A DNA stretch of 64,000 nt. Origin: Arctopsyche grandis. Its lineage: Eukaryota > Arthropoda > Insecta > Trichoptera > Hydropsychidae. Position numbers and translations under genes: made by a program. Within the stretch, counting starts at the first letter, position 1. The number at the start of each line of letters is the position of its first letter. Location of the stretch: NCBI RefSeq assembly GCF_051622035.1, contig NC_135355.1, positions 8,370,501 to 8,434,500 on the forward strand, written 5' to 3'. The notes under the pieces are model-generated. The model searched no databases. It saw only the letters and a program-made list of their open reading frames with translations, and was not told the DNA's origin. Of this stretch, positions 16,755 to 64,000 are shown piece by piece.

Positions 16755-17071
16755 ATGAGTCTGTTGAGGCTGGCTTTACTTTTGGCCGCGTACGCCGTGG
16801 TGCCGCATCATTGCGGTGTGGAAGACTTGCGCAGGAGCAGGATGAACCCGGTCCAGCCCAGCTTCCATGACAGGATGAGGAATATCCCCATAGGGTCCAG
16901 AACTGATATCTACATCGGTATAGCGGTTCCAAGCAGCAGCCAATCGACTTTGAAAGCCTTCAACAAGACCGTGGCTAATGTTTCAGCTGGCTTTGCGGCC
17001 GGGGAGTACGGATTTGCATACAGGAATATATCTCTTCAACCATTTCACATCGAACTGCCAGAGAACGAAAG
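16755..17071 (+). CDS. First coding exon of ionotropic-glutamate-receptor-like gene (possibly NMDA-type)
   Basis: The exon encodes a signal peptide (about residues 1-20, MSLLRLALLLAAYAVV) followed by the start of an extracellular domain. A beta-strand-like TDIYIGIAVPSSS (50-62) and a helix-like segment KAFNKTVANVSAGF (67-80) resemble the beginning of the amino-terminal (LIVBP/ANF-like) domain of ionotropic glutamate receptors. Three N-glycosylation sequons are visible (N70, N75, N91). The exon ends AAAG|GTTAGT after two bases of codon 106, which is phase 2. The next phase-compatible exon found is at 63908 and begins FSGELLVSVCSGLQ, which fits the same domain. Such receptors are ligand-gated cation channels in the neuronal membrane. 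NMDA subtype is an inference from the resemblance to NMDA subunit N-termini; the pore and ligand-binding domains lie outside the window. Confidence 0.6.
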
Positions 17072-17762
17072 GTTAGTCAGATTAACCCTTTGTCCTCTCA
17101 GCTAGCTCAATTATTTCGAATAAAGCTATGGATAAACTGGTTAAACCAATTCATTACACTACGTTCTTTTATTAGATTTTAAAAAAGGAAACTAAATTTC
17201 AGGTTACTTACACATAGATTACTAGGTTTTAAATTCAATTAAATACATAAATGTATGCATGTATGGATTTGAATTCGGATTTATCAAAATATTAAACAAG
17301 CAGAACAATAGTGATTCATATGTCAAATTATGAACTATCGAAATAAATTAACTGCTTTATTAAAATACTGTTCAATCGGTAGGTATAGATAAAGCCGTAG
17401 CAATGAATTTTACGCCTTTTGCAAATATCTAATTTGGCGCCTCTTTACTTTATTACGGTATTAAATAATAAAAATATATTTATTAAAAATTGAATAGTCA
17501 AAATAAAATTAATCTAAAAAATTAAAATTTTTTTATATTAAAAATACCCCAAATTGACAATGTCGTATAAAAGAAGACATTTTTATTTTTTGAAAAATTG
17601 TATATTAGACAGCATAACGGTGTATTTTATTTATTACTAGTGGTTTTAGACGGCTCAACTCGGTATTTGTAATATAAACCGCTTAAACATGGCTAATTAA
17701 TTAGTAAATGTTTTATTAAATTTATTTGAATAGTTTTATTTAATTTAAATATATTCATTTCT

Positions 17763-17995
17763 TTTTACTTTATCTGTGTACGTAGTAGCAATAGATGAAG
17801 TTTTGTGATCATGCGAACACTCACACAGATAGACACACACACACACACACACACACACACACACACACACACACACATTTTTTCTAGATCCTGAAAACGT
17901 GATTAATGATCGATTCTGAGTTTGAATCAGTCAAAATCTCGAATTTGAATTTTCGCATCATCACAAAACTTCATCTATTGTTAGATAAAGTAAAT
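17763..17995. mobile_element. MITE with TTTACTTTATCT arms around a (CA)n core
   Basis: The left arm (about 17763-17815) and right arm (17951-17994) are inverted: TTTACTTTATCTGTGT...GATGAAGTTTTGTGATCATGCG against CGCATCATCACAAAACTTCATC...AGATAAAGTAAA. A (CA)n tract occupies 17828-17876. Related sequence occurs at 28636-28790, and one arm is found at 63834-63888. Confidence 0.75.
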
Positions 17996-19932
17996 ATGTT
18001 TCAGAAAGTGATAGCTAGGTCCTAAAACGAATAACGAAATCGTCAAATTGATACTCAAGTTGCATAAAAGATTTTAAAAGAAAAATAAAATGTTTTTCTT
18101 TATTCTATAAGAATATTGTAATTCGTAATTATTGAAAGTTTAATTATTGAATATTGTAATTATTGAAAGTTTCAAACGGATCAAAAGTCTGTTATTATGT
18201 TATTATAAATTTTATATTATTCGCTTATTCACATTCTATTGTGAATATGTATGCTCAAATTTGATTTCCGATCTTGACTGTTGGTCGATCTTAAATAATT
18301 TTCGATAATTTAAATAAAAATAGGCGAGTGGCGCCCAAGGCACCCCCCTGGCATTCAGCACCCTTGGCAAGCACCCCGTTGCTAATGCGTTGCTACGGTA
18401 CTGGGTATATACATACATATGTACATACATACATACATATATTACTGACCGTTTATGATAATTACTGATTAAAAGTATTTAAAGTTACTCATCAACTAAA
18501 TAAACATCAGGAAGTGGCATGTATAGATATGTAATGTACACATTACGATACGTGGAAATGAAAATACAATAGTTTCAGTTTTAAAATGACCGTTGATTTG
18601 TACATAATCGAAACCAGCAATAGTTTCGATTATTTTTTTTATTTACGGGGTTTTATACAAAATTTCACACATTTTTTTGCATGAATTTAACGCAATATAA
18701 CGAACTGACTGTAAATTATCTAACTGATAAACTATGACATCCACATTGGGCTATTCTTCTCTATTGAACAATTGAAGTTTATTGCTATGTTCGAGATAAT
18801 ATTGGAAATATAGCGAATTTACATAAAGGCAATAAATTTTCTCTAATTTGTAGCCTTGCAAATTATACGACAAAATATAAGATTATTAGATTCATTATAT
18901 TAAATAAATCACGAATTTATACAAAAAATTAGTAAATAACATGAAAAAAAAATGTAATAATGAGCTTACAAAGCCTCACAAATGCGAAGGGTTATTAATT
19001 ATACGGGTTCTGGGCTTTTTGTGTTTGAGTGAGATCGAGCGTTTACCGACAGAGTAATGAGTTGTTCGAGTAAGGGGTTGTTTTCAGGGAAAATATGCAG
19101 AGGATTTCTGAAAAAGATCTTTCGAAGTTTAATATGTCTACGTATGTAACGAAGTTGTTTGCGTATGGAATGCTCAAAAATTCTTCGCAAATTTTACCTC
19201 CATAATATGTATGTACGGTCTCTTCATTAGTTCCCACCGGCAAATTTAGCCGAAGCATGTAATCGAAATTAACGCCATTTTGTATTCAAAACAAAAGCCA
19301 AATGCTCTGCAGTGCGTTTTCGAATAAATTTGCATGTATACATATATATTATTAAAATAGTCTTTGACGATAATCAAACGTCATGCACCGGAAGCCTGGG
19401 TTTGTGTCATTGACTAGCGTGCGTCACTTTATTTAGATTTACTACCATGTGTAGGTGTTTCAAGCATTTCATATTTTAAAGTTGTTTGGATCTGTTTATA
19501 AATATATTATAATGTTTTAATGTGGCTCGCGTACCTAAACGCGCACTCCCCCGTTGTGTTCAAAGATCATAGCAGCAAAAAATGAATACGTATAATTTTT
19601 TCGATAAGAACGATAACACGACTACGCCATACTCATCGTACTTTAACCAGACACTGTAGCAGAATAACATCAACATTATCTTTCATGATGTTGGAATTCT
19701 TGCGTCTTCATAGAACGTACATACTACATATAGTTACATGTGTGTATATGTACTTGCACTTGATATAAAAATGGTACAGATAAGATAAAAGAGTAAAGCA
19801 AAAATGAAAAATTTCCAGACACGCTAACTGTAGACATGTTTTGAAATACAAAGTATTATATTATATTATGAATAAATATTATATTATCATATTACATACA
19901 TATGTATGTATATAGTTACATATATGTATATT
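17996..19932. other. No gene seen
   Basis: AT-rich intronic sequence with short TATG microsatellites. The open frames at 18236-18430, 18999-19190 and 19043-19258 are unrelated to any family I know and overlap each other in different frames. Confidence 0.5.
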
Positions 19933-63833: not shown

Positions 63834-63888
63834 TTTTACTTTATCTATGTATGTACAATGTACGTAGTAACAATATATGAAGTTTTGT
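63834..63888. mobile_element. Solo arm of the TTTACTTTATCT MITE
   Basis: TTTTTACTTTATCTATGTATG...CGTAGTAACAATATATGAAG matches the left arm of the MITE at 17763-17995. It lies about 20 bp upstream of the receptor splice acceptor at 63907. Confidence 0.65.
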
Positions 63889-63907
63889 TTTTTTATTATT
63901 GTTTCAG

Positions 63908-64000
63908 GTTCAGTGGAGAGTTGCTGGTTAGCGTCTGCAGCGGCTTGCAAGGGCGAAGGGCGGCTGCCCTTCTCGTCGGCGGCAGAAGTTCTGCTGCTGC
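63908..64000 (+). CDS. Receptor-like exon, partial at window end
   Basis: A polypyrimidine tract and TTTCAG end at 63907. In the phase expected from the exon ending at 17071, the exon reads FSGELLVSVCSGLQ then GRRAAALLVGGRSSAA to the end of the window. The alternating hydrophobic strand after a helix ending in Cys resembles the second helix and strand of the amino-terminal domain of ionotropic glutamate receptors. The GC-rich third positions contrast sharply with the AT-rich intron and support coding status. The exon continues beyond 64000. Confidence 0.6.

Follow-up and report, generated by a model that had tools for sequence, protein, structure and literature searches.

The 46.8-kb interval that separates two short plus-strand open frames in this stretch of DNA is very probably the intron that follows the first coding exon of a gene for an NMDA-receptor subunit, with four intact AANAT-like genes lying inside it as guests on the minus strand. 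The window, by which we mean the whole stretch of 64,000 nucleotides that was analysed, corresponds to C1:8370501-8434500 of a 475.7-Mb assembly in 189 contigs, which by its gene content would be that of an insect, and ends 93 bases into the second receptor exon, and the flanks C1:8270501-8370500 and C1:8430501-8580500 were also examined. Coordinates without a contig name are those of the window.

Results

Probable receptor exons 1 and 2 and the interval between them

16755..17071, plus strand: receptor coding exon 1; open frame, donor AAG/GTTAGT at 17072, ends in phase 2
17072..63907, plus strand: presumed receptor intron 1; 46,836 bp, GC 0.327
63908..64000 in the window, on to C1:8434600 and then GTGAGT, plus strand: receptor coding exon 2; acceptor and open frame

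Read by eye, a start codon in exon 1 is followed by a hydrophobic stretch that resembles a signal peptide, and then by what looks like the beginning of an amino-terminal domain. The acceptor TTATTATTGTTTCAG ends at 63907, directly 5' of exon 2, and joining 16755-17071 to 63908-64000 in phase 2 leaves the frame open, so that the in-frame junction of a phase-2 donor at 17072 with an acceptor at 63907, as proposed in the earlier note, holds at the level of both sites and of the frame. When the genome was searched with exon 1 and the 31-residue peptide of exon 2, matches at E<=0.001 were confined to these two places. We infer that the two exons are spliced to each other and to the channel exons described below. 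An ATG frame of 41 codons, possibly an upstream ORF, is also found just 5' of exon 1 (16548-16673).

The interval itself contains repeats and retrotransposon sequence, as seen in the following frames identified with Pfam:

20043..23165, minus strand: retrotransposon ORF, endonuclease and reverse transcriptase
24793..27786, plus strand: retrotransposon ORF, endonuclease and reverse transcriptase
52203..54128, minus strand: reverse transcriptase ORF

Seven ORFs of the intron were given to Pfam in all, and reverse transcriptase was recognized in six, three of them 1.9-3.1 kb in length; no Pfam match at E<=0.001 was obtained for the ORF at 44874-45446. Long TA repeats are also present. Other sequences of the interval include a stretch on the minus strand at about 29490-29740 which, by eye, resembles mitochondrial ATP6 with frame breaks and is probably a nuclear mitochondrial insert, and GC-rich, minisatellite-like repeats at 48650-49400 and 43500-44050 that keep long open frames in several frames and look similar, by eye, to sequences at C1:8453680-8454159 and 8484070-8484789. 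Repeats of a GGGAAC-like unit were likewise noticed by eye at 60440-60560 and at C1:8571045-8571450, the latter being very long.

Identity of the probable host gene

Downstream of exon 2, and on the same strand, the following features were located:

C1:8447540-8447694, plus strand: likely exon 3; phase 0 in, phase 2 out
C1:8498693-8499486, plus strand: exon 4; second half of the ANF_receptor domain (E 2.6e-6, over the cut-off)
C1:8502719-8502890, plus strand: exon 5; linking exon with compatible phases
C1:8527169-8528525, plus strand: exon 6; Lig_chan-Glu_bd (E 3.8e-21) and Lig_chan (E 1.2e-19), both over the cut-off
about C1:8532979-8533990, plus strand: pieces of the second ligand-binding lobe and the last membrane helix, read by eye
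C1:8534873-8536168, plus strand: tail ORF; open reading frame

Exons 3 and 5 were sought under a phase rule, and their phases are therefore not independent evidence. Between exons 2 and 3 a further mid-domain exon of about 40-50 residues would be expected, and three approaches failed to locate it. Exon 6 was among the 37 matches returned by a genome-wide search for Lig_chan (E 1.5e-17), and its closest relatives in the PDB were GluN3A (1.8e-56), GluN2B (1.9e-38) and GluN1 (7.6e-37); the best 60 of 360 PDB matches were all named as NMDA subunits or carried NR/GluN names. The ligand-binding and pore domains of the host are thus closest to those of NMDA subunits in the PDB comparison. Because these downstream, same-strand exons match Lig_chan as well as GluN3A, GluN2B and GluN1, the host is, judging from its predicted protein, an NMDA receptor subunit gene, and its span would be about 149 kb (C1:8387255-8536168). 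Like vertebrate GluN3A, GluN2B and GluN1, the host combines ligand-binding and channel domains with the later half of an amino-terminal domain, but its N-terminal exons have diverged too far to yield a significant match. We take its subtype to be insect NMDAR2, judging from motifs such as SYTANIAALIAGLFFHN, and insect NMDA receptor subunit 2 would presumably be its closest kin.

How firmly exons 1 and 2 can be tied to this channel gene deserves closer attention. Taken alone, they found nothing in Pfam or PDB at E<=10, and even in the joined model the ANF_receptor match stays outside them. Although by eye they align in the expected register to fly NMDAR1 and GluN2B, 422, 367 and 281 of 1000 shuffled sequences scored as well against the amino-terminal domains of fly NMDAR1, GluN2B and GluN3B, respectively. 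For exon 4, in comparison, all but one of 1000 shuffles were worse against fly NMDAR1, while 95 were as good against GluN2B and 286 against GluN3B. In a first codon-bias control with less masking, 30 of 85 control frames scored as high as exon 1, and 11 of 326 as high as exon 2. With a wider mask covering the retrotransposons and the GC-rich repeats, which was picked after the result of the first control, none of 14 controls was as high as exon 1 (score 25.5) and none of 152 as high as exon 2 (25.1); exon 3 (11.3) also exceeded all 313 of its controls, narrowly, as the top control reached 10.9. Five intronic ATG frames of at least 45 aa passed a hydrophobicity and GC filter as alternative first exons (33059, 33083, 43531, 43545 and 63858). 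The frame at 63858 is the sole one adjoining a receptor exon, those at 43531 and 43545 fall within a GC-rich repeat, and those at 33059 and 33083 have no other support. It is on account of the splice sites, the phase, the coding bias and the lack of a better first exon that we consider it highly likely that exons 1 and 2 belong to one predicted receptor gene with the downstream channel exons. The earlier proposal that the two exons form part of a single glutamate-receptor gene gains support from the NMDA-type channel gene that follows downstream on the same strand, even though exons 1 and 2 themselves have no significant match.

The four probably nested genes

58649..61763, minus strand: AANAT-like gene A, 245 aa; exons 61763-61580, 59360-59170, 59102-58936, 58844-58649
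41503..42774, minus strand: AANAT-like gene B, 245 aa; exons 42774-42582, 42247-42066, 41969-41800, 41695-41503
36619..37705, minus strand: AANAT-like gene C, 246 aa; exons 37705-37513, 37437-37253, 37108-36939, 36811-36619
34755..35988, minus strand: AANAT-like gene D, 239 aa; exons 35988-35796, 35712-35528, 35184-35036, 34947-34755

In each of the four genes, three introns of phases 1, 0 and 2 separate four exons, and the spliced frame is free of internal stops; exon 3 of gene D is shorter at its 5' end. Their complete coding sequences lie between receptor exons 1 and 2 on the opposite strand, intact, just as the earlier note had placed them. With regard to splice sites, the first intron of gene B is of the GC-AG type (ACAG/GCAAGT, 42581, minus strand), and the donor of the second intron of gene A, GTCGCA, is weak (59169, minus strand). 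Just 5' of the start of gene C, at 37760-38110, a sequence around GGTAAACGGTACATACTCGC is present in two inverted copies that perhaps represent a small element with inverted repeats; what looks by eye like similar sequence is also present near C1:8499520 and at 8546855-8547200.

Genes B, C and D are 49-59% identical to one another, while A is 32-36% identical to them. In the tree, B, C and D group together with support of 98, and A falls outside this clade, as do two paralogues on C9 and C3, although neither A, with a support of 48-56, nor these paralogues are firmly placed. What had been described as a four-gene family is thus better described as three closer genes plus a divergent one, all four being AANAT-like. 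Gene C was the query of our PDB search, and matched the putative aaNAT7 of Aedes aegypti (4fd7) with an E of 9.2e-35 over residues 5-244 of its 246, the aaNAT5b-like 4fd4 being far behind (E 1.2e-4). According to PMC4394704, aaNAT2, aaNAT5b and the putative aaNAT7 form three separate clusters. In Pfam, Acetyltransf_1 was found over the cut-off in gene A (E 9e-6), and the best matches of D (E 0.0056), C (0.055) and B (0.091) fell short of it. A genome search with gene C (E<=1, best candidates) recovered all four nested genes at C1:8405258-8432263 and, among the matches listed, further exons of the subfamily only at the paralogues C9:28836750-28839169 and C3:3684335-3692576. The intron would therefore hold four of at least six subfamily genes, a count obtained with gene C as query, which could have passed over relatives that resemble A alone. 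Among viral contigs, no confirmed relative of gene C was found.

Ratios of dN/dS were 0.26 for A-C, 0.26 for A-D and 0.15 for C-D, with a dS of 1.8-2.5 in these three of the six pairs; in the other three, dS was undefined. Because dN is well below dS, and dS is high or undefined, the nested genes look old and appear to have been kept by selection. As to catalytic residues, the Glu of the DEPLN motif is the general base in several fly AANATs, as stated in PMC6070697. This Glu is kept in the alignment of all four nested genes, where the motif reads DETLN, DEPWY, EEPWS and DEPWS. Within the acetyl-CoA loop motif, which we take to be R-x-x-G-x-G/A, the loop glycine is present in A and in 4fd7, whereas B, C and D, like the paralogues on C9 and C3, carry another residue. 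Compared with Aedes aaNAT7, then, gene C is related over nearly its full length and the motif Glu is kept in all four genes, whereas B, C and D differ from 4fd7 and from A at this glycine. A loss of function of B, C and D on these grounds was considered and dropped, as the C9 and C3 paralogues lack the glycine too. Fly AANATL7, presumably CG13759, was also set aside as a counterpart of the nested genes. It was modelled on 4FD6, as reported in PMC6070697, a structure listed with aaNAT2 in the PDB search. Each nested gene presumably gives rise to an expressed acetyltransferase; that the genes metabolise amines, as had been suggested, follows from the family name only, the solved structure closest to gene C being that of a putative AANAT.

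Discussion

The arrangement can be accounted for by a history that we find the most likely, the order of whose steps is inferred. A receptor of the insect NMDAR2 type would be transcribed on the plus strand over about 149 kb, and A-D, members of the aaNAT7 subfamily, would be independent genes on the minus strand of its first intron. An ancestral aaNAT7-like gene may have arrived in this intron, or may already have lain within it; B, C and D could then have derived from tandem duplication, A being an older copy or a separate arrival, and the intron would later have been enlarged by retrotransposon insertion. No functional link between the nested genes and the receptor is needed.

Two other readings would do away with the nest altogether. 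If the receptor started at exon 2, the AANAT-like genes would be its upstream neighbours, and exon 1 would either be part of a different gene or encode a small secreted protein ending at 17105. This seems improbable to us: an in-frame Met at 63858 and a hydrophobic run do precede exon 2, and exons 1 and 2 lack a significant family match, but a hydrophobic run is what the T-rich tract of a splice acceptor encodes, the domain would likely be left without its first strand and helix, and exon 1 comes with a start codon, a beginning like that of a signal peptide, and a good donor whose phase matches. Alternatively, the interval might be a misjoin by which the assembly brought together an AANAT-like locus and a receptor locus, an error that the long TA repeats and the retrotransposons of the intron could cause. 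We give this reading the least credit of all those considered here, as the window contains no N bases and lies in a contig of 42.7 Mb.

Accepting that the genes are nested, it could be argued in addition that the nesting is functional, either because neuronal transcription of the receptor silences the antisense AANAT-like genes or because shared enhancers co-regulate them. The geometry would permit it, the nested genes look old, given their high or undefined dS, and the pair tim2-2mit, with a putative neuronal enhancer, provides a known example in PMC3786989. The same paper, however, cites a comparison in which 109 human and 752 fly host-nested pairs showed no significant correlation in expression, and it states that four Lepidoptera have not kept the tim2-2mit nest, so that we hold a functional nest to be very unlikely. 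Less likely still is the stronger form of this idea, in which the nest would be kept across insect orders as a switch between neurons and other cells, with receptor transcription turning the antisense acetyltransferase genes off.

The nest of four guests in an NMDA-receptor intron is, in our opinion, a well-kept case of a known host-nested gene arrangement. The view that such an arrangement is unusual was not borne out, since about 6% of Drosophila genes are nested, frequently in antisense to their host, and such nests are considered mostly neutral, a by-product of long introns, as PMC3786989 has it. That paper also describes the tim2-2mit nest in Apis and in every Drosophila species examined. 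As in tim2-2mit of Drosophila, a protein-coding gene here lies wholly within the intron of a larger gene and on the opposite strand, but here four related, four-exon guests share one intron, and the host and guest families differ from those of tim2-2mit. Among the matches listed in a search of open-licence PMC full text, no nest of N-acetyltransferases in an NMDA-receptor intron appeared.

What is distinctive about this locus is the combination of four related guests in a single intron with a glutamate-receptor host. If its synteny is old, it would join long-kept nests such as tim2-2mit, and if it is not, it would be an ordinary result of a long intron; it offers in addition a concrete locus at which one could measure how far opposed transcription units interfere with each other.
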